Assembly (NCBI GenBank): GCA_902777335.1
Contig: CACYTF010000009.1
Coordinates: forward strand, 81,002-113,167
DNA length: 32,166 nucleotides
Origin: an uncultured Eubacteriales bacterium
GTDB taxonomy: Bacteria; Bacillota; Clostridia; Christensenellales; Aristaeellaceae
Reading direction: 5' to 3'
Below, piece by piece: positions 5,645 through 31,411 of this stretch. Position 1 is the first letter of the stretch. Each line of letters opens with the position of its first letter. Position numbers and translations under genes: made by a program. A model generated the notes under the pieces. The model worked only from the letters and a program-made list of their open reading frames with translations. It was not told the DNA's origin and ran no database searches.

Positions 5645-6760
5645 ATGAAGGTATTGATGGTCGACACCGTGCCGATGACCCGCGCCGGCATCACGATGGT
5701 GATGCTGAACTACACCGGCGGCATGGACCGCACGGGCATGCGCATCGACTTTGTGGCCATAAACGACGTGGAGCCGGCGCTGCGCGAGCGCATCAACAGC
5801 TTCGGCTCAAAGCTGTACGTCATCCCCGGCCGCAACCGCCGCCCGCTGCGCTACGTGTGGAAGCTGGCGCGGCTGATCCGCAAGAACGGCTATCAGGTGG
5901 TCCACGCCCACGGCAACAGCTGCACGCTGGCGGTGGAGCTGCTGGCGGCCTGGCTGGGCGGCGCGAAGGTGCGCTGCCCCCACAGCCACAACACCACCTG
6001 CACCGCCCCGCGGGCGAACCGGCTGCTGCGGCCGCTGTTTGAGCGCCTGTACACCCACGGCTTCGCCTGCGGCGAGGCCGCCGGGCGATGGCTGTTTCGC
6101 GACCGGCCCTTTGAGGTGCTGAAAAACGGCATTGACGCGGCGCAATACGCCTTTGACGCCGACACCCGCCGCGTCTACCGCGAAAAGCTGGGCCTCGACG
6201 GCTGCGTGGCCGTGGGCCACGTGGGCCTGTTCAACGAACAGAAGAACCACCGCTTCCTCATAGAAGCCTTCGCGAAGGCCCACGCCGTGAACCCCAGGCT
6301 GAGGCTCGTGCTGGCCGGCGACGGCCCGCTGCAGCCGGACGTGCGTGCGCAGGTGAAATCAAAGGGCCTTTCAGACGCCGTGCTGTTCCTGGGCGTCCGG
6401 CAGGACATCCCGCGGCTGCTTTCCGCGATGGACGCAATGGCGCTGCCCTCGCTGTACGAGGGGCTTCCCAACGTGCTGATCGAGTGGCAGGCCAACGGCC
6501 TGAACGCGCTGGTCTCGGACAAGGTGACCGATGAGGCCCAGCTGACCGGCCTGCTGCGCTACCTGCCGCTGGACGAGACCGCCTGGGCCGACGCGCTGGC
6601 CCGGGCCACGATCGCAGATGACCGCACCCAAGCCAGCGCAAGGGCCGCGAAAGCCATCGCCGAAGCCGGCTACGATATAAAAGCCGCCGCGGGGAGGCTG
6701 AGAAGGCTATACGAAACGTATGTCAATGACGCCTCCGATGCGAAACCTTCTGCCTTCTGA
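5645..6760 (+). CDS. Glycosyltransferase family 4 protein
   Basis: 371 aa GT-B fold glycosyltransferase, probably a retaining enzyme building a cell-surface glycan from a nucleotide sugar. N-terminal Rossmann half begins KVLMVDTVPMTRAGITMVMLNY and contains VVHAHGN near residue 87. The C-terminal donor half has HVGLFNEQKNHRFLIEAF, LVLAGDGPL, and the EX7E-type motif in LPSLYEGLPNVLIEWQANGL. No signal peptide or membrane segment is seen. The gene is solitary, with its own promoter, and its 3' end overlaps the convergent helicase gene by 38 bp. It resembles EpsF/capsule-type transferases, but acceptor and sugar cannot be told from sequence. Confidence 0.88.
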   Translation: MKVLMVDTVPMTRAGITMVMLNYTGGMDRTGMRIDFVAINDVEPALRERINSFGSKLYVIPGRNRRPLRYVWKLARLIRKNGYQVVHAHGNSCTLAVELLAAWLGGAKVRCPHSHNTTCTAPRANRLLRPLFERLYTHGFACGEAAGRWLFRDRPFEVLKNGIDAAQYAFDADTRRVYREKLGLDGCVAVGHVGLFNEQKNHRFLIEAFAKAHAVNPRLRLVLAGDGPLQPDVRAQVKSKGLSDAVLFLGVRQDIPRLLSAMDAMALPSLYEGLPNVLIEWQANGLNALVSDKVTDEAQLTGLLRYLPLDETAWADALARATIADDRTQASARAAKAIAEAGYDIKAAAGRLRRLYETYVNDASDAKPSAF

Positions 6761-9107
6761 AGCACCCGTCGCACATGCTGTAGGGCCAGTTCCAGGGGAG
6801 GGGCGCGCCGCAGACGCGGCAGGCGCGCTGCTGGAGCTTTTGGGTGGAGAGGATATGGATGATGCCCTCGGAGATCACGGACTTGCGCCGCTGGATCTCC
6901 TCCAGGACCGCGTCCGGCTGCTCCAGAAACAGCCGGGCGTAGTTGTAGTACAGGTCGCAGCGGCGATAGTCGGCCTCCAGGCCGTCCAGCATCTGTATGA
7001 CGCAGCTGTCCGGGTCCAGAAGCGTTGGGACCTCCGGCAGCACGTCGATGTGTTCATGGTTGCACTCCGCGTGGTACATGGCCCGCCAGCGCGCCAGCAG
7101 GTCCGGGTCGGTCTCGTCGAAGGGGATGCAAATGAACCGGTACAGCAGCCGCTTGTCGGTGTTCTTCGTCTCCAGCATCGCGGCCAGCGCGGCCATGCGC
7201 ACGGCGGAGGCCTTCGAGAAGCATCCCTTGTCCTTCATGGCCAGCCACTGGTTGATGATCTGCGTCAGCGGCAGCGGCAGGCCCAGCAGCGATTCCGGAA
7301 ACGCTATGACCGCCTCCGTCAGCGGGTACAGCGGCTTGTTCAGCGCCTGGGCCACCATGCCCTTGAAGCCGAAGGCGTTCACGTAGCCCACGTCGTACAG
7401 CCCATAGCGCCCGGCCCGGCCCGCGATCTGCTTGATCTCGGCGTCGGTCAGCGGGCGGGTAATGTCCCCGTCGTACTTCTCCGATTCCAGAAACACCACC
7501 CGCTCGATGGGCAGGTTCATGCCCATGGCGATGGCGTCGGTGGACACGGCCACGTCGGTGTCGCCCTCCAGAAAGCGGCTCGCCTGGTCCCGCCGCACGT
7601 CCGGCGGCAGCGCGCCGTAGATCAGCGACACCCGAAAGCCCTTGCGCTTCAGCTCGGCGGCCACCGCGTGCACCCGGGCCTTGGAGAACACGATCAGCGC
7701 GTCGCCGCGGCGCACCGAGGCGGGGAACTGAAAGCCCTCCTTCTCGGCCACCAGCGGCGTCATGCGCCTGTGGCGCACGATTTCCAGTTCGTCCCCGCAC
7801 TCCTGTATGATGCGCGTCAGCAGGCCCTCGGCGTCCGGCGACGCGCAGGCGTGGATCTCGTCCGCGCACAGGCCCAGTATCGCCGCGGTCCACGCGCCGC
7901 CCCGGTCCCGGTCGGCGATCATCTGGCACTCGTCGATCACCGCCACGTCGTAGTGGGTCTTCAGGTCCGCCATCTCCACCGTCGACGACTGCACCCGGCT
8001 GCCGGGCACGCGGATCTGCTCCTCGCCGGTCACCAGCGAGCAGGGCACGTCGTCCATGTTCAGCGTCTCGAACTGCTCCGCCGCCAGCAGCCGCAGCGGG
8101 CCCAAATAGATGCCGTTGCGCGCGCCGCGCAGCCGCTCGACGCCCTCGTAGGTCTTGCCGGAATTGGTGGGGCCCAGGTGCAGTATGAATTTTCGGCGCA
8201 GCTGCCGCGCCAGCGGGTACAGGTCGCGGTAGTGCTCGGGGACGGCGTCCAGCAGCGCCGCGCGCAGATTCTTCTCCAGGGCGCTCACCGCGTCCGCCTG
8301 CTTCTGCAGCTGTCTGAGGCCACCGTTCTGCGTAAGCAGCCGCCGCACGCGCTTGGCCGGAAAGCGGCCGCGCACGCTGTCGCACAGGCTGCCCTTTGCC
8401 TTGCGCAGCAACCGGTTCACCCGCTGGGATACCGCCTCCCCGTCCTTCGCGCGCACATTGCCGCAGGCCGCCAGCTCCGGGCACTCCCGGTACAGCGCCG
8501 AGCGCAGCGCGCCGCTTAAGGACCTGGGGTGAAAGGCCCGCTCCACCGCGCCGTCCGGCACGCCCTTTGAAAAGGTGGTTTGCGTCAGCCGGTCCACCAC
8601 CCGCCCCGGCCCGTCCGGCACGGCGCGGGTCAGGTCGCCCCTGCGCAGGTAGCGCTCCACCTTCTGTTCCGCCTCGTCCGCCAGGCGCTTCGCCGCGGCG
8701 TCCAGCACGCACTTTGGCACCGGCCCCTCCAGCAGCTTCAGCGCGGCCTGTGCCTTTTTCATCGGCACCCGGCTGCGCTCGACGCTGCGCATAAGGTCCA
8801 GGTCGATCTTTTCGCCCTGCTCCAGCGCCTCCGAGATCAGCGGTTCGAGCCGCTCGAACTCGGCCCGGTGGTAATCCATGGCCAGCTCGCCCTTCAGAAG
8901 CGCCTGATAGCATTCGTCCGCGCGGCGCACGTGGTACAGCGTGTTGGCGAAGGCCTTGCCCGCAAGGTATGCCTCCGCCTCCTCCGGCTTCATGCCGGAG
9001 AGTATCGCCCGCGCCTTGCCCAGGGCGCGCTGATACAGGGCGTCCTCCCGCTCGGGGAGTATCGCCCGGATGTACGCCTGAAGCGCCGCGGCCCTGTCCA
9101 CGTTCAT
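6723..9107 (-). CDS. SUV3-like ATP-dependent RNA helicase with C-terminal zinc ribbon
   Basis: 794 aa. The helicase core is of the SUV3/SUPV3L1 type: Walker A GPTNSGKT (312-319) continuing into a YLGPLRLLAAE segment, motif II DECQ (392-395) followed by RGGAWTAAILG, and motif VI QIAGRAGR (560-567). About 300 residues precede the core; the region beyond it resembles the SUV3 C-terminal domain and ends in Cys763-x2-Cys766...Cys779-x2-Cys782, a likely zinc ribbon. Family members unwind RNA, and the mitochondrial form works with an RNA-degrading partner; the bacterial role is not established. The gene stands alone, between a glycosyltransferase (38-bp convergent overlap) and the divergent aro operon, with its own promoter. 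Confidence 0.88.
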   Translation of the reverse strand: MNVDRAAALQAYIRAILPEREDALYQRALGKARAILSGMKPEEAEAYLAGKAFANTLYHVRRADECYQALLKGELAMDYHRAEFERLEPLISEALEQGEKIDLDLMRSVERSRVPMKKAQAALKLLEGPVPKCVLDAAAKRLADEAEQKVERYLRRGDLTRAVPDGPGRVVDRLTQTTFSKGVPDGAVERAFHPRSLSGALRSALYRECPELAACGNVRAKDGEAVSQRVNRLLRKAKGSLCDSVRGRFPAKRVRRLLTQNGGLRQLQKQADAVSALEKNLRAALLDAVPEHYRDLYPLARQLRRKFILHLGPTNSGKTYEGVERLRGARNGIYLGPLRLLAAEQFETLNMDDVPCSLVTGEEQIRVPGSRVQSSTVEMADLKTHYDVAVIDECQMIADRDRGGAWTAAILGLCADEIHACASPDAEGLLTRIIQECGDELEIVRHRRMTPLVAEKEGFQFPASVRRGDALIVFSKARVHAVAAELKRKGFRVSLIYGALPPDVRRDQASRFLEGDTDVAVSTDAIAMGMNLPIERVVFLESEKYDGDITRPLTDAEIKQIAGRAGRYGLYDVGYVNAFGFKGMVAQALNKPLYPLTEAVIAFPESLLGLPLPLTQIINQWLAMKDKGCFSKASAVRMAALAAMLETKNTDKRLLYRFICIPFDETDPDLLARWRAMYHAECNHEHIDVLPEVPTLLDPDSCVIQMLDGLEADYRRCDLYYNYARLFLEQPDAVLEEIQRRKSVISEGIIHILSTQKLQQRACRVCGAPLPWNWPYSMCDGCFRRQKVSHRRRH

Positions 9108-9206: not shown

Positions 9207-9235
9207 TTGACAAATCGCCGGCGGGGCCCTATAAT
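9207..9235 (+). promoter_or_regulatory. Consensus promoter of the aromatic amino acid operon
   Basis: TTGACA (9207-9212), exactly 17 nt, TATAAT (9230-9235): a perfect sigma-A-type promoter. A second TTGACA lies at 9194-9199 without a matching -10. The start would be near 9242, giving a leader of about 195 nt before aroF. Such an unregulated-looking promoter fits control by attenuation. Confidence 0.92.
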
Positions 9236-9273
9236 TTAGCCAATTAAAGCACTGACAGGGAGGACACGCCAAA

Positions 9274-9327
9274 GTGAATCGCAACGCGTACAGCTATTAC
9301 TATTACTTTATCGGCACCGGCAGATAA
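9274..9327 (+). CDS. Tyrosine-rich leader peptide of the aro operon
   Basis: A 17-codon frame starting GTG encodes [17 protein letters not shown] and ends with TAA. Five of its residues are Tyr and one is Phe, with four Tyr codons and the Phe codon consecutive (9295-9309). A GGGAGG lies upstream (9258-9263) with a 10-nt gap. It sits between a consensus promoter and an intrinsic terminator ahead of aroF. Its role is inferred to be that of a sensor: a ribosome stalls on the Tyr/Phe codons when charged tRNA is scarce. It is too short to be found by ordinary gene calling. Confidence 0.88.
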
Positions 9328-9409
9328 AGAGCTTTGCTGTACACCTGATTCAAGCGTCCCTTGTAAACGGCCTTGCAGTAAAACTCACTGCGGGGCCGCT
9401 TATTTTTCC
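9288..9409 (+). promoter_or_regulatory. Tyr/Phe attenuator with mutually exclusive hairpins
   Basis: Four segments can be read off. 1:2 pairs GTACAGC (9288-9294, at the first Tyr codon) with GCTGTAC (9336-9342), with an inner stem CTTTATC/GATAAAG (9306-9312 / 9323-9329). 2:3 is the antiterminator: 9329-9341 pairs with 9374-9386, 12 pairs and one mismatch. 3:4 is the terminator (9368-9398). A ribosome stalled on the Tyr codons would cover segment 1 and free segment 2 for the antiterminator; one reaching the stop codon would cover segment 2 and allow termination. This is the classic trp/phe attenuation logic; the pairings are seen, the mechanism is inferred. Confidence 0.85.
9368..9409 (+). terminator. 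Attenuator terminator before aroF
   Basis: A 12-bp stem (9368-9379 with 9387-9398, two G-U pairs) and a 7-nt loop are followed by CTTATTTTTCC. An overlapping GCGGGGC/GCCCCGC pair (9390-9396 / 9410-9416) lies next to the aroF ribosome binding site and may be an additional fold. Confidence 0.85.
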
Positions 9410-9436
9410 GCCCCGCCCCTGAAAGGAGACATCGAC

Positions 9437-10444
9437 ATGATCATACTGCTGAAGGACAAGGTCAACGAAAACCAGGTGAAGAACCTGACCAACTGGCTGG
9501 AGGGCATCGGCTTTGAGCTGCACATCTCCAAGGGCCAGCACCAGACCATCATCGGCCTGATCGGCGACACCAGCCGCGTGGATATGGACCTGATCGGTTC
9601 TCTGGAGATCGTCGAGAGCGTCAAGCGCATCCAGGAGCCCTTCAAGAGCGCCAACCGCAAGTTCCACGAGGACGATTCCGTCATCGACTGCGGCGGCGGG
9701 GTACAGATCGGCGGCGGGCACTTCCAGATCATCGCCGGGCCCTGCAGCGTGGAAAACCGCGAGCAGATCATCGAAGTGGCCCGGGCGGTGAAGGCCAGCG
9801 GCGCGGGCATGCTGCGGGGCGGCGCGTTCAAGCCCCGCACCTCGCCCTACGCCTTCCAGGGCCTGCACGAAAAGGGGCTGGAGCTGCTCAGCGAGGCCAA
9901 GCGGGCCACCGGGCTGCCCATCGTCACCGAGATCATGGAGGCGGCGCACCTGCCGATGTTCGAGGACGTGGACGTGATCCAGGTGGGCGCGCGGAACATG
10001 CAGAACTTCGAGCTTCTGAAGGAGCTGGGTCAGACCCGCAAGACCATCCTCCTGAAGCGGGGCCTGGCGAACACGCTGGAGGAGCTTTTGATGAGCGCCG
10101 AGTACATCATGGCCGGCGGCAACAACAACGTGATACTGTGCGAGCGGGGCATTCGCACGTTTGAGACCTACACCCGCAACACGCTGGACCTGTCCGCCGT
10201 GCCGGTGCTGCGGCGGCTGACCCACCTGCCCGTGGTGGTGGACCCCAGCCACGGCACCGGCCACGCCTACCTGGTGAAGAGCATGGCCATGGCGGCCACC
10301 GTGGCCGGGGCGGACGGCCTGATCATCGAGGTGCACAACGACCCGCCCCACGCGCTGTGCGACGGCAAGCAGTCGCTGACCCCGGAGCAGTTCGACGATC
10401 TGGCGCGGGACGTGCGGAATGTGCTGCCGTTTGCTGTGAGATAA
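9437..10444 (+). CDS. aroF: 3-deoxy-7-phosphoheptulonate (DAHP) synthase, type I beta
   Basis: 335 aa. It condenses phosphoenolpyruvate with erythrose 4-phosphate, the first shikimate step. Residues 1 to about 70 form the ferredoxin-like regulatory domain known from Thermotoga-type enzymes, which mediates Tyr/Phe feedback inhibition. The barrel follows: AGPCSVE with metal-binding Cys103, [31 protein letters not shown], and [17 protein letters not shown]. Start is ATG at 9437, 8 nt after GGAG. As first gene behind the Tyr-codon attenuator, it is controlled at both the transcript and, by family, the enzyme level. Confidence 0.96.
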
Positions 10445-10464
10445 GGGTACAGGGAGGTACAGTT

Positions 10465-11295
10465 ATGAAAATCGGGATCATTGGGTTGGGGTTGATCGGC
10501 GGGTCGATGGCCATGAGCATCCGGCGGCACACCGGGCACACGGTTTTTGGATATGACATCGACCGGCAGGTGGTGCTGCGGGCCAGGGCCGTGGAGGCCA
10601 TCCACGACGAGCTGACGGAGGACATGCTGCCCGGCTGCGACGTGGTGCTGGTGTGCCTGTTCCCCCAGCTGTGCGCCGACTGGATCGCGTCCCACGCGGA
10701 CGCCTTCGGCGACGGCGCGCTGGTGATCGACTGCGCCGGCGTGAAGCGCCACGTGATGAAGCAGGTGGCGCCGCTGGCCGCGGAGCGCCATTGGACCTAC
10801 ATCGGCGGCCACCCGATGGCGGGCCGCGAGTTCTCCGGCTTCACCGCCGCCCGGGCGGACCTGTTTGAGAACGCGTCGATGATCCTCTGCCCCCCGCCCG
10901 AGGCCCCCATCGAGGCCCGGGAGGCCGCCAAGGCCTTCTTCCTGGAGGCGGGCTTCAAGTCGGTGCGCTTCAGCACCCCCGAGGCCCACGACCAGATGAT
11001 CGCCTACACCAGCCAGCTGGCCCACGTGGTTTCCGGCGCGTATGTGAAGAACCCGCTGGCCCGGGACCATAAGGGCTTTTCGGCGGGCAGCTTCCTGGAC
11101 ATGACCCGCGTGGCCCGCATGAACGAGGTCATGTGGACCGAGCTGTTCCTGGAAAACGACGACCTGCTGCTGCCCGCCCTGGACGACCTGATCCTGCGGC
11201 TTCAGCAGTACCGCGACGCCCTGGCCACGGGCAGCCCGGAAAAGCTGATGCCGGTGCTGCGGGAAGGCAGGGTGTGCAAGGAGGCGCTGGATTAG
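10465..11295 (+). CDS. tyrA: Prephenate dehydrogenase
   Basis: 276 aa. It oxidatively decarboxylates prephenate to 4-hydroxyphenylpyruvate, the tyrosine branch. N-terminal nucleotide-binding domain with GLGLIGGS (7-14), then GGHPMAGREFSG and the all-helical domain containing TSQLAHVVSG. No fused ACT or chorismate mutase domain is present; chorismate mutase is on pheA. The ATG at 10465 follows AGGGAGGT; a longer frame back to 10357 overlaps aroF and is rejected. Specificity for prephenate rather than arogenate is assumed from the family. Confidence 0.95.
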   Translation: MKIGIIGLGLIGGSMAMSIRRHTGHTVFGYDIDRQVVLRARAVEAIHDELTEDMLPGCDVVLVCLFPQLCADWIASHADAFGDGALVIDCAGVKRHVMKQVAPLAAERHWTYIGGHPMAGREFSGFTAARADLFENASMILCPPPEAPIEAREAAKAFFLEAGFKSVRFSTPEAHDQMIAYTSQLAHVVSGAYVKNPLARDHKGFSAGSFLDMTRVARMNEVMWTELFLENDDLLLPALDDLILRLQQYRDALATGSPEKLMPVLREGRVCKEALD

Positions 11296-11304
11296 TTCGT
11301 ATAA

Positions 11305-11582
11305 GTGAGGAGTTAGGAGTGAGGAGTGAGGAGCATAAGTGTGCCGCCGTTCGCCTGAGAGGGAACAGGGTACAGGGAACAGGGTACAGGAATAGCCTCT
11401 GAACCACCGCGCATGTCATTGCGAGGAGCGGGCGACGCAGGAACCCGCGACGTGGCAATCCGGCCCCCCTGTTTTGGTACCCAAAACGAGTCAGAAGAAC
11501 CGTCCCCATGACTCACGTTCCCCTGAATCAAACAAATCCCGTCAGGGATTTGCACCAGAACTCCTCACTCCTAACTCCTCAC
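11305..11582. repeat. Composite repeat element inside the aro operon
   Basis: It fills most of the 318-bp tyrA-aroB gap. A perfect 22-bp inverted repeat made of heptamers bounds it (11305-11326 and 11561-11582). Inside are a second array GGGAACA/GGGTACA (11361-11390), the TGTCATTGCGAG...CGTGGCAATCCG repeat (11414-11462), a GTTTTGG/CCAAAAC hairpin, a GAACCGTCCCC module, and a CAAATCCC/GGGATTTG hairpin (11533-11552). The first heptamers begin 10 nt after the tyrA stop. No transposase and no convincing internal promoter are seen; whether transcription passes through is open. Confidence 0.8.
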
Positions 11583-11613
11583 TGCCCTCAACGCTCTCCC
11601 AAAGGAGGTCACT

Positions 11614-12678
11614 ATGCGCACCATTCACATCACCGCTTCCACGAATTACGATGTTCTGATCGGCACCGGCCTGATCGACAAATCCGGCGAGCTGACCGCG
11701 AAGGTCGTCAAGCCCTGCCGGTGCATGATCGTCGCCGACGACACGGTGGACGAGCTGTACGGCGACCGGGTGCAGATCAGCTTCAGCTACGCCGGCTTCG
11801 ACGCGCGGCGCTTCGCCTTCCCCGCCGGGGAGGCCAGCAAGAACCTGGACACGCTGGGCGACATACTCACCGCCATGGGCGAGGCGGGGCTCTCCCGCAG
11901 CGACCTGGTGGTGGCGCTGGGCGGCGGCGTGACCGGCGACATGGCGGGCTTCGCCGCGGCGATCTACGCCCGGGGCATACGTTTTGTGCAGGTCCCCACC
12001 ACGCTGCTGGCCGCGGTGGATTCCTCGGTGGGCGGCAAGACCGCCGTGGACATGCCCTTCGGCAAGAACATGGTGGGCGCGTTCCACCAGCCCAGCCTGG
12101 TGGTCACCGACACCGACGTGCTGCGGGACCTGCCCGCGGAGCAGCTGTCCAACGGCGCGGCGGAGGCCGTCAAGTGTGGCGTGCTCAACGACCCGGAGCT
12201 GTTCGCGCTGCTGGAGACGGGCGACTGGCAGGGGCGCGTCGACGAGGTGGTGGCCCGCTGCGTGACCTACAAGCGGGACGTGGTGGCCCGGGACGAGTTC
12301 GACACCGGCGAGCGGGCCCTTTTGAACCTGGGGCACACCTTCGGCCACGCCATCGAGGTCTGTTCAAACCTCACCGTGCTCCACGGCCAGGCCGTGGGCG
12401 CCGGCACGCTGATGGCCGCCGCCTACGCCGGGTGTCCCGAGGCCATGCTGCGCCGCGTCTCGGACTGCCTGAAGGCCAACGGCCTGCCCACCCGCTTCCC
12501 CTACCCCGCCCCGGCGCTGGCCCGGGCGGCGCTCAGCGACAAGAAGCGCGCGGGCGGGGTGATCACGCTGGTGCTGCCCCTTGAGATCGGCCGGTGCGAG
12601 CTTCAAAAGCTGCCCGTCGATCAATTGCCCGCCTGCTTTGAGAAGGCGCTGAACGTACTGGAGGCGCTGGACCTATGA
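11614..12678 (+). CDS. aroB: 3-dehydroquinate synthase
   Basis: 354 aa. It converts DAHP to 3-dehydroquinate using NAD and a divalent metal. Motifs in order: PAGEASKNL, LGGGVTGDMAGFAA, PTTLLAAVDSSVGGKTAVD, the metal-binding Glu in NGAAEAVKCG, NLGHTFGHAIE and LHGQAVGAG with the metal-binding His residues. A strong AAGGAGG precedes the ATG at 11614. It follows the repeat element and overlaps aroA by 4 bp (ATGA). Confidence 0.97.
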   Translation: MRTIHITASTNYDVLIGTGLIDKSGELTAKVVKPCRCMIVADDTVDELYGDRVQISFSYAGFDARRFAFPAGEASKNLDTLGDILTAMGEAGLSRSDLVVALGGGVTGDMAGFAAAIYARGIRFVQVPTTLLAAVDSSVGGKTAVDMPFGKNMVGAFHQPSLVVTDTDVLRDLPAEQLSNGAAEAVKCGVLNDPELFALLETGDWQGRVDEVVARCVTYKRDVVARDEFDTGERALLNLGHTFGHAIEVCSNLTVLHGQAVGAGTLMAAAYAGCPEAMLRRVSDCLKANGLPTRFPYPAPALARAALSDKKRAGGVITLVLPLEIGRCELQKLPVDQLPACFEKALNVLEALDL

Positions 12679-13892
12679 ACGTGGTCGTCTCGCCGTCGAA
12701 GCTGGCCGGGCGCGTGCGGGTGCCCGCGTCCAAGTCCGCCGCCCACCGGGCGCTGATCTGCGCCGCGCTGGCGGACGCGCCCACGCGCATCGGCATCCGT
12801 GCGCTGAACCGGGACATCGAGGCCACCGCGGCCTGCCTGCGGGCGCTGGGCGCGGGCGTCGAGGCCGCGCCGGAGGGCCTGGCCGTCTCCCCCATTCAGG
12901 CGCTGCCCGGGCAGGCGGCGCTGGACTGCGGCGAGAGCGGCTCCACGCTGCGCTTTCTGATCCCGGTGGCGGCGGCGCTGGGGGTACCGGCCCGCTTCAC
13001 CGGGCGCGGCAGGCTGCCCGAGCGCCCCAACGCGCTGCTGACAGACGCCCTGCGCGCACACGGCGCGGCCGTCGACGCGGACCTGTTGCCGATGAACGTC
13101 CGCGGCCCCGTGCGCGGCGGGCGGTGGGCGCTGCCGGGCAACGTGTCCAGCCAGTACGTGACCGGCCTGCTGTTCGCGCTGCCGCTGCTCACCGAGGACA
13201 GCGAAATCGCGCTGACCACGCGGCTGGAGTCGTCGGCCTACGTGGACATGACGCTCGGGGCCCTCGCCCGCTTCGGCATAGGCGTGGACGCCGTTGACGG
13301 CGGCTGGCGCGTGCCGGGCCGCCAGCGCTACCGCTCCCCCGGCGCGCTTGACATCGAGGGCGACTGGTCGGCGGCGGCCTTCTGGCTGGTGGCCAACGCC
13401 ATGGGCGCGCACGTCGACATCGAGGGCCTGCGGGACGACACCGCCCAGGGCGACCGGGCGGCGCTTGACCTGATGGGGCGGGACGTCATCGACGCCTCGA
13501 ACGTGCCGGACCTGGTGCCCGCCCTGGCCGTGGCGGCGGCGGCGCGGCCCGGGCGCACGGTCATCACCGGCGCGGCGCGGCTGCGGCTGAAGGAGAGCGA
13601 CCGGCTGGAAACCGTGGCGGCCCTGCTCCGGGCGCTGGGCCACGGGGTGGCGGTGACGCCGGACGGCCTGGTGATCGAGGGCGGCGCGCCCGCGCCCTGT
13701 GCGGAGAACATCCGCACGGTGGACGGCGCGAACGACCACCGCGTCGTGATGGCCGCCGCCGTGGCCGCGGCCTTCGCGGACGGGCCCGTGCGCGTCACGG
13801 GCGCGGAGGCGGTGGAAAAATCGTACCCGGACTTCTTCCGGGATTTTGAGGCGTTGGGAGGTCGGCTGCATGTCGAACGCGCTGGGGAATAA
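12675..13892 (+). CDS. aroA: 3-phosphoshikimate 1-carboxyvinyltransferase (EPSP synthase)
   Basis: 405 aa. It transfers enolpyruvyl from PEP to shikimate 3-phosphate. Visible: VPASKSAAHRALI near the N-terminus, CGESGSTLRFLIPVAA (a Firmicute-style variant of the PEP-site loop), GRLPERPN, SSQYVTGLLFALPLL, and LKESDRLE. The ATG overlaps the aroB stop as ATGA, indicating translational coupling. Its 3' end overlaps aroC by 23 bp. Length is slightly short of the usual 420-430 aa, without a missing core motif. Confidence 0.96.
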   Translation: MNVVVSPSKLAGRVRVPASKSAAHRALICAALADAPTRIGIRALNRDIEATAACLRALGAGVEAAPEGLAVSPIQALPGQAALDCGESGSTLRFLIPVAAALGVPARFTGRGRLPERPNALLTDALRAHGAAVDADLLPMNVRGPVRGGRWALPGNVSSQYVTGLLFALPLLTEDSEIALTTRLESSAYVDMTLGALARFGIGVDAVDGGWRVPGRQRYRSPGALDIEGDWSAAAFWLVANAMGAHVDIEGLRDDTAQGDRAALDLMGRDVIDASNVPDLVPALAVAAAARPGRTVITGAARLRLKESDRLETVAALLRALGHGVAVTPDGLVIEGGAPAPCAENIRTVDGANDHRVVMAAAVAAAFADGPVRVTGAEAVEKSYPDFFRDFEALGGRLHVERAGE

Positions 13893-14943
13893 ATACCGGG
13901 TCCAGATATTCGGGCAGAGCCACTCGCCGATGATCGGCGCGGTGATCGAGGGCGTGCCCGCCGGCGTCGTGCCGGACATGGACTTCATATCGGCCTTCAT
14001 GGCCCGCCGCGCGCCGGGCGGCGACGCGCTGTCCACCGCCCGCAGGGAGGCGGACAGCCCGCAAATCGTGTCCGGGCTCAACGAGCGGGGCGAGACCTGC
14101 GGCGCGCCGCTGTGCGCGCTCATCGCCAACACCGACGCCCGCAGCCGCGACTACGACGCCCTGCGGGACGTGCCCCGGCCAGGCCATGCCGACTACGCGG
14201 CCTTCGTGAAGTTCGGCGGGCACAACGACATCCGGGGCGGCGGGCAGTTCTCCGGCCGCCTGACCGCGCCGCTGTGCTTCGCCGGGGCGCTGGCCATGCA
14301 GCTGCTCCAAACGCGCGGCGTGCGCGTAAAAGCCCGGGTGCAGGCCATCGCCGGCATACGGGATATTGACGTGGACCTGGCCGCGCCGCCGCTGGACGCC
14401 ATCGCGGCGGAAGGCCTGCCCACCATAAGCCCCGACGCCGCGCGGCGGATGGCCGAGGCGATCCTCGCGGCCAAGTCGGCCGGCGATTCGGTGGGCGGCG
14501 TGGTGGAGTGCTTCGCCACGGGCCTGCCCGCGGGGCTGGGCGAGCCGATGTTTGACGGCGTGGAAAACCGGGTGGCCCGGGCGCTGTTCGGCATCCCCGC
14601 CGTGCGGGGCGTGGAGTTCGGGCTGGGCTTTGCCGCCGCCGAACTGCGGGGCAGCGCGCACAACGACGCCTTCCGCGTGTCCGAGGGCCGGGTGGTCACC
14701 GAAACCAACCGCTGCGGCGGCGTCCTCGGCGGCATCACCACGGGCATGCCGCTAATTGTGCGGGCCGCCTTCAAGCCCACGCCGTCCATCGCGCTTCCGC
14801 AGGCCTCCGTGTCGCTGAAGCGCAAGCAGGACGCGCCGCTGACCGTGCAGGGCCGCCACGACCCCTGCGTGGTGCCGCGGGCCGTGCCCTGCGTGGAAGC
14901 CGCCGTGGCCTGCGTACTTTTCGACCTGATGCTGGAGGGATGA
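13870..14943 (+). CDS. aroC: Chorismate synthase
   Basis: 357 aa. It makes chorismate from EPSP with reduced FMN. Signatures: FGQSHSPMIGAVIEGVPAG at the N-terminus, ARRAPGG, PRPGHADYAAFVKFGGHNDIRGGGQFSGRLTAP, VENRVARALFGIPAVRGVEFG and ETNRCGGVLGGITTGMPL. I chose the ATG at 13870 because GGGAGGT lies 7 nt before it; the in-frame start at 13846 would deepen the overlap with aroA and lacks such a site. The final codons overlap the next gene region (TGA at 14941-14943). Confidence 0.96.
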   Translation: MSNALGNKYRVQIFGQSHSPMIGAVIEGVPAGVVPDMDFISAFMARRAPGGDALSTARREADSPQIVSGLNERGETCGAPLCALIANTDARSRDYDALRDVPRPGHADYAAFVKFGGHNDIRGGGQFSGRLTAPLCFAGALAMQLLQTRGVRVKARVQAIAGIRDIDVDLAAPPLDAIAAEGLPTISPDAARRMAEAILAAKSAGDSVGGVVECFATGLPAGLGEPMFDGVENRVARALFGIPAVRGVEFGLGFAAAELRGSAHNDAFRVSEGRVVTETNRCGGVLGGITTGMPLIVRAAFKPTPSIALPQASVSLKRKQDAPLTVQGRHDPCVVPRAVPCVEAAVACVLFDLMLEG

Positions 14944-14945
14944 GC

Positions 14946-16088
14946 ATGGAGCTGAAGGACATTCGCGCGCGCATCGACGCCATCGACGACGAGCTGGTCC
15001 GCCTGTTCGTTCAGCGCATGGACTGCTCCGCCCAGGTCGCCCGGGCCAAGCAGACCACCGGCAGGCCCATACGGGACCCCGCCCGGGAGCGGGAGATCCT
15101 CAACCGCCTGACCGCCGCCGCCGGCGAGACCTGCGCGCCCTACGTGGACGCGCTGTACAGCCATATCCTCGACCTGAGCAGAAGCTACCAGGCCTCCCTG
15201 GGCGAATACCGCAGCCCGCTGGAGGCGCAGATCGCCGAAGCGCTGAAGAACACCGAGGGCAGCCGCCTGCCCGAGCGCGCGCTGGTGGCCTGCCAGGGCG
15301 CCGAGGGCGCCTATGCCCAGCAGGCCTGCGCGCGCCTGTTCCGCTACCCGGATATACTGTACTTTAACAGCTTCGAGGGCGTGTTCAACGCGGTGGAGAA
15401 GGGCATGTGCCGCTACGGCATACTGCCCGTCGAGAACAGCACCGCCGGCTCCGTCACCCAGGTGTACGACCTGATGGAGAAGCACCGCTTCCACATCGTC
15501 GGCGCGAAGAAGCTGCGCATCGACCACCGGCTGATGCGCAAGAACGGCAGCTCCGGCGCGCCCATCACCGAGGTGGTGTCCCACGAGCAGGCCCTGCGCC
15601 AGTGCAGCCGCTTCCTCGCCGCCCACCCCGAAATCAGGGCCACGGTGATGGAGAACACCGCGGTGGCCGCGAAGTTCGTCACCGACAGCGACCGGGACGA
15701 CCTGGCCGTCATCGCCTCCCGCGCCTGCGCCGACCTGTACGGGCTGGACATCGTCGAGGACGACATCAGCGACAGCCCCGCCAACTTCACCCGCTTCATC
15801 TGCATCTGCCGGAAGCTGGAGCTGTACCCCGGCGCGCGGAAGGTGTCGCTGATGCTGAACCTGGCCCACGAGCCCGGCGCGCTGAGCGCCATCGTGTCGC
15901 GGCTGGCCCTCGCCGGCGTGAACCTGCTGAAGCTGGAGAGCCGCCCGCTGCCCGGGCGAGAGTTTGAGTTCCGGTTCTTCTTCGACATGACCGCCTCGGT
16001 GTCCGACCCGGCGGTGGTGCGCCTGCTGTGCGAGCTGGAGGCCCACTGCGACCGGTTCACGTTCCTGGGCTGTTACGACGAGGAATGA
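14946..16088 (+). CDS. pheA: Bifunctional chorismate mutase / prephenate dehydratase (P-protein)
   Basis: 380 aa. Residues 1 to about 85 form an AroQ-type chorismate mutase (ARIDAIDDELVRLFVQRM...REREIL). The prephenate dehydratase domain follows, with VACQGAEGAYAQQA, ILPVENSTAGSV and the catalytic-site NFTRFICI. A C-terminal ACT domain (GALSAIVSRLALAGVNLLKLESRP) is the Phe-sensing feedback unit. Start at 14946 is preferred over the ATG at 14940, which overlaps the aroC stop but sits directly against the GGAGGG. It opens the Phe branch and also supplies prephenate for TyrA. Confidence 0.95.
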   Translation: MELKDIRARIDAIDDELVRLFVQRMDCSAQVARAKQTTGRPIRDPAREREILNRLTAAAGETCAPYVDALYSHILDLSRSYQASLGEYRSPLEAQIAEALKNTEGSRLPERALVACQGAEGAYAQQACARLFRYPDILYFNSFEGVFNAVEKGMCRYGILPVENSTAGSVTQVYDLMEKHRFHIVGAKKLRIDHRLMRKNGSSGAPITEVVSHEQALRQCSRFLAAHPEIRATVMENTAVAAKFVTDSDRDDLAVIASRACADLYGLDIVEDDISDSPANFTRFICICRKLELYPGARKVSLMLNLAHEPGALSAIVSRLALAGVNLLKLESRPLPGREFEFRFFFDMTASVSDPAVVRLLCELEAHCDRFTFLGCYDEE

Positions 16089-16128
16089 GGGATTGGGAAT
16101 TAGGAATGAGGAATGAGGAATTGGGAAT
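16080..16128 (+). repeat. Heptamer array at the pheA/aroE junction
   Basis: Seven consecutive heptamers of the form GAGGAAT / TGGGAAT / TAGGAAT run from the last codons of pheA to the aroE start. Several units contain both a GAGG ribosome binding core and, across the unit border, an ATG. The array therefore forms the intergenic region, ribosome binding site and start codon of aroE. Confidence 0.85.
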
Positions 16129-17389
16129 GAAGGGTGCGTCTGCGGGTATTGAATACGGCCTCGTCGGGGCGAAGCTGGGGCACAGCTGGTCGGTGCCCAT
16201 CCACAACCAACTGGGCGACTACGACTACCGGCTGTACGAGCGCGACGAGGCGGCGTTTACCGACCTTCTGAAGCGCCGGAGCTTCAGGGGGCTGAACGTC
16301 ACCATCCCCTACAAGAAGCTGGCCTACGGCCTGTGCGACGCGCTTTCCGACACCGCGCGGGAGGTGGGCTGCGTCAACACGCTGATCGTGCGGCCCGACG
16401 GCAGCCTGTACGGCCACAACACCGACATCGGCGGCTTCATCGCCATGGCGCGGCGCGCGGGCGTGGCGATCGACGGCAAAAAGGTCGCGGTGCTGGGCAG
16501 CGGCGGCACGTCGCTGACGGCCCGGGCCGCCTGCCGGCGCATGGGCGCGCGCGAAATCGTGGTGGTTTCCAGAAGCGGCCCGGTGGACTACGACGCCCTG
16601 TACCGCGACCACGCCGATGCCCAGGTGATCGTCAACACCACGCCGGTGGGCATGTACCCGAACAACGGCGTCCGCGCCGTCGACCTGGCGCGGCTGCCGA
16701 AGGTCGAAGGCGCGCTGGACGTGATCTACAACCCGGACAAGACCGCCCTGGTGCTGGACGCCGAGGCGCGGGGCCTGCCCGCCGCGGGCGGGCTGTACAT
16801 GCTGGTGGAGCAGGCGCGGTTGGCCGCCGAGCTGTTCACCGGTCGGGACATCCCGGAGGATGAGACCGCGCGCATCCACGCGCGGCTGCGCGGCGAGGCA
16901 CTGAACCTGATTTTGATCGGCATGCCCGGCTGCGGCAAGAGCCGCATCGGCCGGGCGCTGGCCGGGCGCATGGGCCGCCCCTTCGTGGACTGCGACGACG
17001 AGATCGAGCGCCGGGCGGGCAGGACCATCCCCCGGATCTTCGCCGAATCGGGCGAGGCCGCCTTCCGCGATCTGGAGCGCCGGGTGATCTCAGAGGTGTG
17101 CAAGGAAAAGGGGCAGGTCATCGCCACCGGCGGCGGCGCGATCCTGAGCGCGGAAAACGTGCGGGCCATGCGCCAGAACGGCAGGCTGATCCTGATCGAG
17201 CGGGACCTGGGCGCGCTGAGCACGGAGGGCCGTCCCCTGTCCAAATCGCCGGAGGCGCTGCGCCAGATGCAGCGCGCGCGGGGGCCGCTGTACCGAGCCG
17301 CCGCGGACGGCACCATACAGAACAACGCCGCGCCGGAGGAAGCCGTGGCGCGGGCACAGGAGGCGTTTTATGAAGCTGTTGATCGTTAA
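16127..17389 (+). CDS. aroEK: Shikimate dehydrogenase - shikimate kinase fusion
   Basis: 420 aa fusion. The N-terminal AroE domain (to about residue 255) reduces 3-dehydroshikimate: YGLVGAKLGHSWS, NVTIPYKK with the catalytic Lys63, GHNTD with Asp100, and NADP-binding GSGGTS (124-129). The C-terminal AroK domain phosphorylates shikimate: LILIGMPGCGKS (Walker A 265-272), VDCDDEIE, AFRDLE, and ATGGGAIL. So two consecutive steps share one chain. Start is uncertain: in-frame ATGs exist at 16085, 16106 and 16127, all inside the heptamer array. I chose 16127, which has GAGG at 8 nt and leaves the normal AroE N-terminus. It overlaps aroQ by 20 bp. Confidence 0.93.
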   Translation: MKGASAGIEYGLVGAKLGHSWSVPIHNQLGDYDYRLYERDEAAFTDLLKRRSFRGLNVTIPYKKLAYGLCDALSDTAREVGCVNTLIVRPDGSLYGHNTDIGGFIAMARRAGVAIDGKKVAVLGSGGTSLTARAACRRMGAREIVVVSRSGPVDYDALYRDHADAQVIVNTTPVGMYPNNGVRAVDLARLPKVEGALDVIYNPDKTALVLDAEARGLPAAGGLYMLVEQARLAAELFTGRDIPEDETARIHARLRGEALNLILIGMPGCGKSRIGRALAGRMGRPFVDCDDEIERRAGRTIPRIFAESGEAAFRDLERRVISEVCKEKGQVIATGGGAILSAENVRAMRQNGRLILIERDLGALSTEGRPLSKSPEALRQMQRARGPLYRAAADGTIQNNAAPEEAVARAQEAFYEAVDR

Positions 17390-17807
17390 CGGGCCCAACC
17401 TGAACCTGCTGGGCATACGGGAAAAGCACATCTACGGCGACCGGGACTACGACGCGCTGTGCGCCTGCATCCGCGCCGGAGCCGAAAAGCTGGGCTGCGA
17501 AGTCGAGCTGTTCCAGTCCAACCACGAGGGCGCCATCGTAGACCGCATCCAGCAGGCCTACTTCGACGGCACCGAGGGCATCGTCATCAACCCCGCCGCC
17601 TACACCCACACCAGCGTGGCGATCCTGGACGCGCTGAAGGCCGTGCAGCTGCCCGCCGCCGAGGTCCATCTGACCGACGTGACCCATCGCGAGCCCTTCC
17701 GCCAAATCTCCTACGCCGGCATGGCCTGCGAGGCGCACTTCATCGGGCTGGGGTTCGAGGGGTACGTGAAGGCGATGGAATGGCTGGTTGGCCATCATAA
17801 ATCCTAA
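17370..17807 (+). CDS. aroQ: 3-dehydroquinate dehydratase, type II
   Basis: 145 aa, normal for the dodecameric type II enzyme. It dehydrates 3-dehydroquinate to 3-dehydroshikimate. Motifs: NGPNLNLLG with the catalytic Tyr in the lid region (HIYGD), FQSNHEGAIVDRI, INPAAYTHTSVAILDAL and EVHLTDVTHREPFR. AGGAGG lies 6 nt before the ATG, inside the aroEK end. Last gene of the operon, which thereby contains all seven shikimate enzymes. Its stop overlaps the stop of a convergent small gene by 4 bp; no terminator is visible right after it. Confidence 0.96.
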   Translation: MKLLIVNGPNLNLLGIREKHIYGDRDYDALCACIRAGAEKLGCEVELFQSNHEGAIVDRIQQAYFDGTEGIVINPAAYTHTSVAILDALKAVQLPAAEVHLTDVTHREPFRQISYAGMACEAHFIGLGFEGYVKAMEWLVGHHKS

Positions 17808-18082
17808 ATAGCTGCGGCATGTTCAAATCCCCCATCTCTTGCCAATTCATAGATGGTATGTGCCAGGCTCTGAATGAGTTCCTGCAGCTGGGCGATCTCA
17901 TCCCGAGAAAAGCCTTCGATCTTTTCCCATGTATAATCGGGCAACCAGCAGGTCGCGGATTTAAAGCCGTAATCCACCGGCTTTTCAACGCAGACACGAA
18001 CCTTCTCCCGGCCGTCCTCCATGATGCTCTCGGAATGGACGATCTCTGTATCGTCCGGAAGTGTCATAAACGGATAAAGCAT
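17804..18082 (-). CDS. Small protein of unknown function
   Basis: 92 aa, not recognised. It begins MLYPFMTLPDDTEIVHSE, has a beta-rich middle with REKVRVCVEKPVDYGFKSATCWLPDY, and an alpha-helical C-terminus EIAQLQELIQSLAHTIYELARDGGF. No signal peptide or membrane segment. The start at 18082 is backed by GGAGGAGG 7 nt upstream; the frame stays open to 18370 only because it runs through hexamer repeats that would encode Lys-Thr repeats. It is monocistronic and convergent with aroQ. Size and isolation would fit an orphan antitoxin-like or stress protein, but nothing in the sequence proves this. Confidence 0.7.
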   Translation of the reverse strand: MLYPFMTLPDDTEIVHSESIMEDGREKVRVCVEKPVDYGFKSATCWLPDYTWEKIEGFSRDEIAQLQELIQSLAHTIYELARDGGFEHAAAI

Positions 18083-18203
18083 AGCCAGTCCTCCTCCGCG
18101 ATATCCTCTGCTCCACAGTCTATCACAAAACCACGCCAAAAACAACACCGTCCCGTACAGGTCTTGTTGCATTGTCAACCGCGGGCGCGCGAAAAAACCC
18201 GCC

Positions 18204-18269
18204 GTCTTCGCCTTCGTCTTCGTCTTTGTCTTTGTCTTGCTCTTTGTCTTTGTCTTAGTCTTTGTCTTG
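18204..18269. repeat. Hexamer tandem repeat (GTCTTY, about 11 units)
   Basis: Eleven near-identical hexamers (GTCTTC, GTCTTT, GTCTTG, GTCTTA and two variants) lie in the 370-bp gap (18083-18452) between the small gene and glnN. The strand asymmetry (pyrimidine-rich on plus) and lack of a start codon argue against coding. The rest of the gap holds the hairpin at 18287-18306 and the glnN promoter. Confidence 0.85.
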
Positions 18270-18286
18270 GCTTTTTTCGGTTTATC

Positions 18287-18306
18287 AAAAAACCGGTCGG
18301 TTTTTT
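18287..18306. terminator. Possible bidirectional terminator upstream of glnN
   Basis: AAAAAACC and GGTTTTTT pair around a GGTC loop, with extra T residues following on the plus strand. The A/T tracts would give a U-run on both strands. It could stop aro operon read-through that has passed antisense over the small gene. The stem is mostly A-U, so it is weak. Confidence 0.4.
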
Positions 18307-18384
18307 TTGTAACATTCAGGGCTGATATTGCGCTGCGCTGTTCCCCATGCCGTCCAGATTTTACATACATTACGCTTTCGCCGC

Positions 18385-18413: not shown

Positions 18414-18452
18414 ACCGTATAGAAGCCGCGATCTCAACGGGGAGTGACGACC

Positions 18453-20537
18453 ATGAACGACATCTCGAGCCGCTTTGCCGAAAAGGTGTTCAACCTGGAC
18501 ACCATGCGCCAGCGCCTTCCCAGGGACACGTACCGGGAGATGCTGCGCTGCATCGAGGACGGAAAGCGCCTGGACCTTACCGTGGCCAACATCGTGGCCA
18601 ACGCCATGAAGGACTGGGCCATCGAGCAGGGCGCGACCCACTTCACCCACTGGTTCCAACCGATGACCGGCATCACCGCCGAGAAGCACGACAGCTTCAT
18701 CAGCCCCAGCGGCGACGGGGTGATCATGGAGTTCTCCGGCAAGGAGCTGGTGCGCGGGGAATCCGACGCGTCCTCGTTCCCCTCCGGCGGCCTGCGCAGC
18801 ACCTTCGAGGCCCGGGGCTATACCGCCTGGGACCCCACCTCCTACGCCTTCATCAAGGACGGCGTGCTGTACATCCCCACCGCGTTCTGCAGCTTCGGCG
18901 GCGAGGCGCTGGACATGAAGACGCCGCTTCTGCGCAGCATGGAGGCCATCAACCGCCAGGCCCAGCGGGTGCTGAAGCTGTTCGGCCACGCGGGCGTGAA
19001 GCCGGTGACCACCGTGGGCAGCGAGCAGGAATACTTCCTGGTGGACCAGAGCGTGTTCAACGCCCGGGAGGACCTGTTGATGACCGGCCGCACGCTGCTG
19101 GGGGCGCGGCCCCCCAAGGGGCAGGAGCTGGATGACCACTACTACGGCGTCATCAAGCCCCGGGTGCAGGCCTTCATGCGCGAGCTGAACGACGAGCTGT
19201 GGCAGCTGGGCATCCTGGCCAAGACCGAGCACAACGAGGCCGCCCCCGCCCAGCACGAGCTGGCCCCCATATTCACCACCACGAACATCTCGGTGGACCA
19301 CAACCAGCTGACCATGGAGCTGATGCAGAAGGTGGCCCACCGCCACGGCATGGTGTGCCTGCTGCACGAGAAGCCCTTCGCGGGCGTGAACGGCAGCGGC
19401 AAGCACAACAACTGGTCCATCGGCACCAGCAACGGCGTCAACCTGCTGGACCCGGGCACCACGCCCTTTGAGAACGCCCAGTTCCTGCTGTTCCTGTGCG
19501 CGGTGATCCAGGCCGTGGACGACTATCAGGACCTGCTGCGCATCTCCGTGGCCACCGCGGGCAACGACCACCGCCTGGGGGCGAACGAGGCCCCGCCGGC
19601 GGTGATGTCGATGTTCCTGGGGGACGAATTGACCGAGGTGCTGGAGGCCATCGAAAACGAATCCGCCTACGGCGGGCGCGACCGGGAGCAGCTGAAGATC
19701 GGCGTGGACGTGCTGCCCCGCATTCCCAAGGACAGCACCGACCGCAACCGCACCTCCCCCTTCGCCTTCACCGGCAACAAGTTTGAGTTCCGCAGCCCCG
19801 GCGCCAGCCAGACCATCGCCAAGCCCAACATCGTGATCAACACCGCCGTGGCCGAGAGCCTCATGCAGTTCGCCGACGCGCTGGAGGGGGCCCAGGACTT
19901 CACCCAGGCGCTGCACGACCTGATCAAAGGCACCATCAAGGCCCACAAGCGCATACTGTTCAACGGCAACGGCTACGACAACCACTGGCCCGAGGAGGCC
20001 CAGCGGCGCGGCCTTCTGAACCTGCGCACCACGCCCGAGGCCCTGGCCCATCTGATGGACGAAAAGAACGTGGCGCTGTTTGAGCGTCACGGCGTGTTCA
20101 GCGCGGCGGAGCTGCGCTCGCGGTACGAGATACTGCTGCAGAACTACATCAAGGTGATCCACATCGAGGCCCAGACCATGATGGACATGGTCAGCCGCGA
20201 CATACTGCCCGCCGTGTCCACCTTCTCGGCCCGGCTGTGCAGGAACGCCGAGGTCAAGTCCAGCGTCGCCGGGGTGGCCTGCGGCTACGAAAAGGCCCGC
20301 TGCCGCGAGCTCTCGCGGCTGACCGACGAGATCTACGCCATCTGCAGCACGCTGGGCGAGGCCGTGCACCACGCCGACGCCGCCGAGGACACGCTGGAGC
20401 GCGCCATGCGCTACAAGGACGACGTGATCCGCGCCATGGACGCCCTGCGCGCCGCCTGCGACGCCTGCGAGGCCTCGATGCCCAAGGCCGACTGGCCGTA
20501 TCCGGGGTATACGGAGATATTGTTCAGTGTGAAATGA
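18453..20537 (+). CDS. glnN: Glutamine synthetase type III
   Basis: 694 aa, the size of GSIII, not of GSI (about 450). It makes glutamine from glutamate, ammonia and ATP. Signatures: [19 protein letters not shown] near residue 110, [12 protein letters not shown] with metal-binding Glu residues, [37 protein letters not shown] (ATP/Glu site) and [18 protein letters not shown] at 18453 is preferred: GGGGAG lies 8 nt upstream, while the GTG at 18444 overlaps that site. It is followed after 20 bp by a miaA-like gene. GSIII is common in Bacteroidota, cyanobacteria and Clostridia. Confidence 0.96.
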
Positions 20538-30049: not shown

Positions 30050-30378
30050 GAGAGTGGAGAGTGAAGAGTGGAGAGTGGAATGAGGGACGGTTCCTTATTC
30101 CATTTTTACGCAGCCAGGGGAACGGATTGCCACGTCGCCCGCTCCTCGCAATGACAGGGCAGAGAGGGCTGCCCCCGGCATGTCATTGCGAGGCGGCCGA
30201 ACGCAGTGAGGCCAACGTGGCAATCCGGTCCCCGTTGCTGTGACAATGCAAAAGGGGACACCGGGGACAGACACAGCAGAACCGTCCCCAATGTCCCCCC
30301 GGTCCCCATCATTCAGAGAAATCCGAAGGATTTCAACCACAATTTCTCATTCCTCATTCCTCACTCCTCATTCCTCAC
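30050..30378. repeat. Composite repeat region bounded by inverted heptamer arrays
   Basis: It fills the gap between the epimerase promoter and the CDF gene. Left edge: five heptamers of the GAGAGTG type (30050-30084). Right edge: five heptamers TCCTCAT/TCCTCAC (30344-30378), inverted relative to the left. Between them are two opposed copies of the TGTCATTGCGAG...CGTGGCAATCCG repeat (30123-30156 inverted, 30181-30227 forward), GGGACGGTTCC and GAACCGTCCCC modules, and an AAATCC/GGATTT hairpin near 30320-30333. The layout parallels 11305-11582. No gene or promoter is seen inside. Confidence 0.8.
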
Positions 30379-31259: not shown

Positions 31260-31287
31260 GCGCACATCCCCTTTCCTCTTCGCAAAC

Positions 31288-31325
31288 AAAAAACGCGGGA
31301 CACGTCATACTACGACTGTCCCGCG
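31288..31325 (-). terminator. Riboswitch expression-platform terminator
   Basis: On the minus strand CGCGGGACA (31325-31317) pairs perfectly with TGTCCCGCG (31302-31294) around a 14-nt loop, followed by six T residues (31293-31288). The 5' arm is the same GGGACA that the NiCo aptamer needs, so aptamer and terminator exclude each other. Confidence 0.9.
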
Positions 31326-31376: not shown

Positions 31377-31382
31377 ACCAAT

Positions 31383-31411
31383 ATGATACCGATTCCCGGC
31401 GGATTAGTCAA
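31383..31411 (-). promoter_or_regulatory. Promoter of the CDF exporter
   Basis: On the minus strand: TTGACT (31411-31406), 17-nt spacer, TATCAT (31388-31383). The start would fall near 31376, just before the aptamer. From 31412 to 31575 I see no gene, only AT-richer sequence that may belong to the insertion element end. Confidence 0.7.

Follow-up and report, generated by a model that had tools for sequence, protein, structure and literature searches.

A predicted Tyr/Phe leader-peptide attenuator before a clostridial shikimate operon and its recurrence in Clostridia

Results

A shikimate operon and its leader

Within the window (the whole stretch of 32,166 nucleotides analysed here), eight consecutive genes, aroF-tyrA-aroB-aroA-aroC-pheA-aroEK-aroQ, are preceded by a leader at 9207-9436 (Table 1). 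The first-pass annotation described this leader as a perfect promoter followed by a 17-residue peptide with five Tyr and one Phe and by three mutually exclusive pairings, and all of these were recovered at the same coordinates. The promoter elements are separated by 17 nt, the leader ORF has its own Shine-Dalgarno sequence, and the pairings comprise the 1:2 stem (GTACAGC with GCTGTAC, 7/7 pairs), the antiterminator (12/13 paired), and a terminator of 12 pairs, eight of them G-C and two G-U, followed by CTTATTTTT. The Tyr and Phe codons span 9289-9309, and the leader stop codon (9325-9327) sits in the 3' arm of an inner hairpin. This inner stem is part of the minimum-energy fold of the leader (-53.7 kcal/mol, z = -3.58), and none of 200 shuffles reached an equally low energy. 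A scan of the genome for the leader element gave a single full-length copy, the one described here, along with two terminator-only matches (contig C3) and a reverse-strand echo at its own locus.

Table 1. Features of the leader and of the genes behind it (positions in the window).
Feature	Position	Strand	Evidence
Sigma-70-type promoter TTGACA-17-TATAAT	9207..9235	+	Consensus matches 12/12
Shine-Dalgarno AGGGAGG of leader ORF	9257..9263	+	Sequence
Leader peptide ORF, 17 codons, GTG start, TAA stop, 5 Tyr + 1 Phe	9274..9327	+	ORF translation; kept in 4 congeners
Strand 1 of 1:2 pre-emptor stem, pairs with 9336-9342	9288..9294	+	Fold; permutation support over 124 loci
Inner hairpin, leader ORF end (9306-9312/9323-9329)	9306..9329	+	Fold; 16-sequence alignment
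Strand 2, antiterminator 5' arm (9329-9341) and 1:2 partner (9336-9342)	9329..9342	+	Fold, alignment, permutation
Strand 3, antiterminator 3' arm, overlaps terminator 5' arm and loop	9374..9386	+	Fold, alignment, permutation
Intrinsic terminator (9368-9379/9387-9398), U-tract 9399-9407	9368..9407	+	Scan; 36-sequence alignment
aroF, DAHP synthase (PRK08673/TIGR01361)	9437..10444	+	Profile match
tyrA, prephenate dehydrogenase	10462..11295	+	Best family PRK08507, matches below curated cut-offs; start picked by eye
aroB, 3-dehydroquinate synthase	11614..12678	+	Profile match
aroA, EPSP synthase	12675..13892	+	Profile match
aroC, chorismate synthase	13870..14943	+	ORF 13846-14943; start codon picked by eye
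pheA, chorismate mutase-prephenate dehydratase fusion	14940..16088	+	Matches just below curated cut-offs
aroE-aroK fusion ORF	16028..17389	+	Matches below curated cut-offs; start uncertain, probably downstream of 16088
aroQ, type II 3-dehydroquinate dehydratase	17370..17807	+	Profile match

The order of the genes suggests that one site may control all eight of them, and a terminator scan found no terminator in the repeat-bearing gap of 318 bp between tyrA and aroB (11296-11613). In this gap, an island with a ATTGCGAGG...GTGGCAATC palindrome is flanked by AGTGAGGAG units that form perfect inverted arms of 24 nt (11304-11327/11560-11583), and the unit occurs again at 30348-30377 on the minus strand. 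Judged by where the tblastn matches end, this gap spans 600-700 bp in two congeners (L099 and L100), and most other loci having both genes show one shorter than 50 bp.

Divergent from the aro promoter lies the gene of a 794-aa protein (6723-9107, minus strand) whose helicase domain is of the Suv3-type DEXQ family (PF22527, 203 bits), known chiefly from mitochondria. On the 3' side of the operon are an ORF on the opposite strand (17804-18370) and, on the plus strand, a gene for type III glutamine synthetase (18444-20537). Further along, a NiCo riboswitch (RF02683, 39.4 bits against a cut-off of 37; 31314-31387, minus strand) stands upstream of the ORF of a cation-efflux transporter (30384-31289, minus strand).

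T-box, TRAP, and Rfam searches

Leader-peptide attenuation is usually associated with Gram-negative bacteria, and T-box or TRAP control with Firmicutes, with few reported exceptions. At this leader we found none of the regulators expected for Firmicutes. A covariance-model search of the window for the T-box (RF00230) gave no match, and the genome as a whole has 14 T-box matches, 2 of them above cut-off. The first ORFs 3' of these matches, as picked by script, were leuA, ileS, valS, leuS, metG, trpX, a trpB-like gene, asnB, alaS, thrS, and trpE, as well as two acyl-CoA ligases and a MocR-like protein, with no Tyr or Phe synthesis gene among them. TRAP (mtrB, PF02081) had no match in the assembly, which is 97.75% complete, and the Bacillus subtilis control was positive. 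None of the 4227 families of Rfam 15 matched the leader at gathering score; the sub-threshold matches at E ≤ 10, of which the best (E 0.14) lay on the other strand, included sodF_sRNA (22.4 bits, opposite strand), ncr982 (20.6), and the trpB motif (19.7), with cut-offs of 46, 50, and 59, respectively. Gathering-score matches were likewise absent from 20 aroF loci of relatives lacking a strict leader call (defined below) and from 20 aroF loci sampled across the class, many of them with a leader call. With no match at gathering score at the site and no TRAP match in the assembly, a T-box, TRAP, or a listed Rfam family was rejected as the identity of the leader. The contrast drawn by the first-pass annotation between this leader and T-box or TRAP control is real, because T-box matches, including that at trpE, lie elsewhere in the genome and TRAP gives no match.

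Recurrence in relatives

We searched the regions upstream of aroF in relatives under two rules. The strict call required at least 4 aromatic residues in 8 consecutive codons together with a Shine-Dalgarno sequence and a terminator, and the relaxed call at least 5 aromatic residues in 8 codons, the Shine-Dalgarno sequence not being required; the strict thresholds were chosen after the family loci had been inspected, and the later class sample played no part in setting them. The strict call was made at 142/196 aroF upstreams: 69/90 in the family (90 of 103 aroF places, 13 weak or incomplete ones left out), 57/80 in the named GTDB set, which consists of best matches such that the sampling favours close aroF homologues, and 16/26 in other families of the order (26 of the 27 new loci among the matches listed, L198, whose start was not located, left out). 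The relaxed rule added 15, for a total of 157/196. The strict call was absent from 54 of the 196, three of which were shortened by contig ends, and neither rule gave a call in 39. A chance origin of the leader and terminator together is ruled out by the controls, in which the strict rule called 126/167 full-length aroF upstreams against 3/501 dinucleotide shuffles and 2/549 random segments from the same loci.

The class sample comprised 87 aroF upstreams, namely 27 of 29 new loci (L314 and L315, incomplete, were left out) and 60 places near rank order, all from among the matches listed. Of these, 43 had the strict call, three of them already met in the covariance-model scan described below, and 45 the relaxed one. 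Occurrence tracked the similarity rank of aroF, with leaders at 17/27 of the best loci and 26/60 of the lower ones. The element thus sampled appears to be common in Clostridia, where roughly one in two of the sampled aroF genes has it. The first-pass annotation had regarded an attenuator driving all of these genes as apparently unusual, which does not hold for its group given these counts. It had also stated that homologous leaders without the Tyr run or without alternative stems would speak against it, and most relatives keep the aromatic run and the terminator.

Among named organisms, carriers include Anaerotignum neopropionicum (L142), Angelakisella massiliensis (L126), an Emergencia sp. 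(L160), and, under the relaxed Shine-Dalgarno rule, Sporobacter termitidis (L139). The nearest named records are the uncultured Clostridiales MAGs RUG14601 and RUG311, which we take from their prefix to belong to a rumen series. In five genomes of one family (f31; G149, G171, G191, G209, and G239), two aroF genes point away from each other, their 5' ends lying about 0.55-0.57 kb apart; of the pair in G149, a Phe-rich leader precedes one copy and no strict leader call was made before the other.

Among the aligned runs, substitution rates by codon position were 0.18/0.27/0.27, with no clear third-position bias. A functional small protein would be compatible with the Shine-Dalgarno sequence and with in-frame conservation among congeners; however, across loci the peptides range from 16 to 43 residues and share little outside the aromatic run, and many leaders end inside or past the antiterminator arm, which makes a function of the peptide itself extremely unlikely.

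Support for the alternative pairings

Covarying stems in homologous 5' regions, to which the first-pass annotation had looked for support, were assessed by alignment and by permutation, and all three stems gained support from compensatory change or from matched arms. An alignment (A3) of 36 leaders, chosen from loci with a call, was made by sequence alone. In it, 82.5% of antiterminator cells were paired against 38%-54% for slid partners, and 8/13 pairs had changed on both sides (shuffled mean 5.2; 14/500 shuffles as high), with a covariation score not reached by any of 500 shuffles. The terminator had 96.1% of cells paired and 11/12 pairs compensated (0/500 shuffles). For the hairpin at the ORF end, aligned over 16 leaders, 93.8% of cells were paired and 3/8 pairs had changed on both sides (23/500 shuffles as high).

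Permutation of strands among loci (n = 124 non-redundant of 142) showed that each locus pairs better with its own strand than with those of others, for strand 2 with strand 3 (Z = -12.6; 0/10,000) as well as for strand 1 with strand 2 (Z = -8.5; 0/5,000). At single loci the signal is smaller: antiterminator energy was lower than in dinucleotide shuffles at p ≤ 0.05 in 53/137 cases (mean z = -1.45), the antiterminator of the window itself gave p = 0.155, and shuffling of strand 1 gave a weak result for the 1:2 stem (median z = -0.34; 32/124 below -1.64). In many leaders, an Ala-Ala pair stands just before the aromatic run, and its GCAGC-type codons may be able to pair with the GCUGC of strand 2.

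Conservation of the leader-end hairpin in near relatives and a conserved GCUG/GCAG core could also be taken as signs of a structured cis-acting RNA, such as an unlisted riboswitch or a protein-binding site, in which the aromatic ORF is incidental. However, Tyr/Phe-dense ORFs complete with Shine-Dalgarno sequence, start, and stop recur on highly varied RNA sequence, the strands co-vary as 1:2:3:4 around the leader stop (the antiterminator arm starts at a median of -17 nt from it), and Rfam gave sub-threshold matches only. We consider such an RNA element very unlikely.

Predicted switch

Taken together, the stretch at 9207-9436 is best read as a predicted ribosome-mediated transcription attenuator (probability roughly 0.9), likely allowing read-through into the aroF-to-aroQ operon when the supply of charged Tyr- or Phe-tRNA is low. 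With ample Tyr and Phe, the ribosome would reach the stop codon and mask the antiterminator arm of strand 2, strand 3 would go into the terminator, and transcription would end at about 9407. A ribosome stalled at the Tyr/Phe codons would instead mask strand 1, leaving strand 2 to pair with strand 3 before the 3' arm of the terminator exists, and the polymerase would read through. Where translation is absent, strands 1 and 2 would pair and the terminator would prevail.

We modelled these states by constrained folding of the transcript to 9388, at which point the 3' arm of the terminator has not yet been made, with an assumed ribosome footprint blocked. The free RNA gave a probability of 1.0 for the 1:2 stem and of 0.0 for the antiterminator. 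With the A site at codons 9289, 9295, 9298, 9301, 9304, and 9307, the modelled probability of the antiterminator was 0.73, 0.90, 0.75, 0.43, 0.39, and 0.65, respectively, and with the ribosome, in its assumed footprint, at the stop codon it was 0.0. In the model, ribosome positions shift the fold in the direction expected of an attenuator. At equilibrium, the full-length transcript forms the terminator in every modelled state (P = 0.97); because the completed terminator wins throughout, the switch must be kinetic, as in the classical cases.

Codon content and downstream genes

We compared codon content with operon type, taking gene order from tblastn with the proteins of the window and counting Tyr/(Tyr+Phe) in the densest 12 codons of each leader. 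The set comprised 116 loci with a leader call and downstream sequence, near-copies included, with 4 undecided loci left out. The mean Tyr share was 0.50 before aroF-tyrA (n = 88), 0.81 before lone aroF (n = 11), and 0.24 before operons without tyrA (n = 13), that is, with tyrA lacking in the stretch of downstream sequence read; codon content differed by operon type (Mann-Whitney p = 3.8e-6 and 2.3e-5). Three of the 13 leaders before operons without tyrA have no Tyr in the run.

Genomes with two aroF genes show the same tendency internally. In 10/10 compared, the Tyr share is lower in the leader of whichever copy stands first in the longer aro operon, with contrasts from 0.86 versus 0.00 down to 0.50 versus 0.40 and 0.40 versus 0.29; these ten are the genomes with operon sequence examined, they are related rather than ten independent events, and one leader (L080) is without a terminator call. 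In one such genome (G053), MIRSFSFAGFFTFTGFF... precedes aroF-aroB...pheA...aroQ and MLHFGRGYAYAYCYC... precedes aroF-tyrA. Restricted to phylogenetically independent pairs, the link between codon content and operon type is no longer significant: on the aroF tree (107 rows, distinct aroF), the independent contrasts number about 4, of which about 2.8 run in the expected direction and 0.1 in the opposite one, too few pairs for significance.

A covariance model built from 16 aroF leaders only matched 10 of 245 genomes of the class: the genome of the window itself, five with the match before aroF-tyrA, three with a Phe-containing, Tyr-free leader before pheA, and one (L241) rejected as spurious, being a terminator without leader. 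The model is narrow, and prevalence was taken from the strict-rule counts instead. In a survey of pheA, leaders with Phe and without Tyr were found at 4/29 loci, all from one genus and three of them the matches just given, and none of 29 tyrA loci had tyrA as first gene with a leader of its own. The pheA leaders of this genus (g188; L267, L269, L271, and L272) start 6 nt after TATAAT and have no Shine-Dalgarno sequence, and their peptides are probably translated from leaderless mRNA.

An attenuator that senses a general slowdown or uncoupling of translation, with the aromatic codons acting merely as slow codons, would sit well with leaders in which Tyr and Phe are mixed freely and with the few that also contain Trp. 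Nevertheless, the sensing run is mostly aromatic and tracks the genes behind it, being Tyr-rich before lone aroF and containing Phe but no Tyr before pheA, and we regard general slowdown as an improbable signal for the predicted Tyr/Phe attenuator. The Trp-containing leaders stand before aroF and mix Trp with Phe/Tyr and Arg (KRFWRRFTF in L065, LYWRRFNWCKF in L067, and YRFWRFTF in L068); a three-amino-acid sensor is possible in these loci. For the element, 'Tyr/Phe sensor' is the better name because many relatives mix Tyr with Phe.

Relatives appear to re-aim the element by codon change, Tyr versus Phe, to suit the operon, as judged from this correlation. In a broader reading, which we favour with moderate confidence, Clostridia would govern entry into aromatic synthesis largely via one re-aimable attenuator, with a shared 1-2-3-4 architecture before aroF operons, lone aroF, and pheA, and with specificity reset by Tyr/Phe codon swaps to fit the operon.

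Discussion

The genome analysed here has T-box matches before trpE and tRNA ligases and a putative Tyr/Phe leader peptide before the entry gene of the pathway. If the broader reading is true, a re-aimable attenuator would place DAHP-synthase isoenzymes under RNA-level control specific for Tyr or for Phe, with T-boxes retained for trp; the counterpart in E. coli is the aroF/aroG split, which is repressor-based. The leader design offers a testable model for how an RNA sensor changes its amino-acid specificity by codon swaps, and the leaders supply candidate Tyr- and Phe-responsive parts for work with anaerobes.

Classical ribosome-mediated attenuators are those of enteric bacteria, in the pheA and pheST leaders and also in trp and his. 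Like these, the element described here has a leader peptide in which the regulated amino acid is frequent, 1:2, 2:3, and 3:4 stems, and a terminator before the first gene. Unlike them, it has mainly Tyr (with Phe), occurs in Clostridia, and stands before the first shikimate enzyme and an operon for the whole pathway. The Tyr T-box, by comparison, binds tRNA directly, without a leader ORF. T-box control has been described for the tyrosine biosynthesis operon of the Bacillus cereus group (PMC2494555); the T-box is absent at the aroF leader here. Leader-peptide attenuation has itself been reported in Firmicutes, with a His leader before hisS/hisZ in bacilli (PMC2965389). For branched-chain amino acids, there are reports of a leucine-rich attenuator peptide in Staphylococcus aureus (PMC5794164) and of ribosome-mediated attenuation in Listeria (PMC5864092). 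These represent the same device where T-boxes are usual, but concern other amino acids and genes, and Bacilli rather than Clostridia.

Short upstream ORFs before shikimate genes have also been noted. The uORFC-13-1 motif before aroF, with 24 representatives from Acholeplasma and environmental sequences and at least one Phe residue (PMC8632094), resembles the present leader in having a uORF with Phe codon(s), a possible promoter, a ribosome-binding site, and an adjacent terminator. The passages on uORFC-13-1 compared here mention no Tyr run, antiterminator test, or operon-dependent codons, and the same paper presents an attenuator for E. coli aroF only as a hypothesis. The legend of Fig. 6 in PMC6429828 gives two candidate uORFs containing F and Y in association with shikimate genes, from a study that has Clostridium novyi among its five genomes; compared by this legend only, such a uORF may represent, in a relative, the element described here. 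The parts of PMC11109978 examined contain no aro uORF, and for Actinobacteria, PMC1262725 reports that the upstream regions of Phe and Tyr operons lack conserved RNA structures. Among the matches listed from the open-access literature (subscription papers and supplements lying outside it), no title or abstract opening dealt with a class-wide clostridial Tyr/Phe attenuator or with codon content tracking the operon. Attenuation of this kind is classical in principle, and uORFs with F/Y ahead of shikimate genes have already been listed in publications; what the present comparison of sequences adds is an element that appears to be common in Clostridia, is unlisted in Rfam, and has codons that seem to correlate with the genes it would control.
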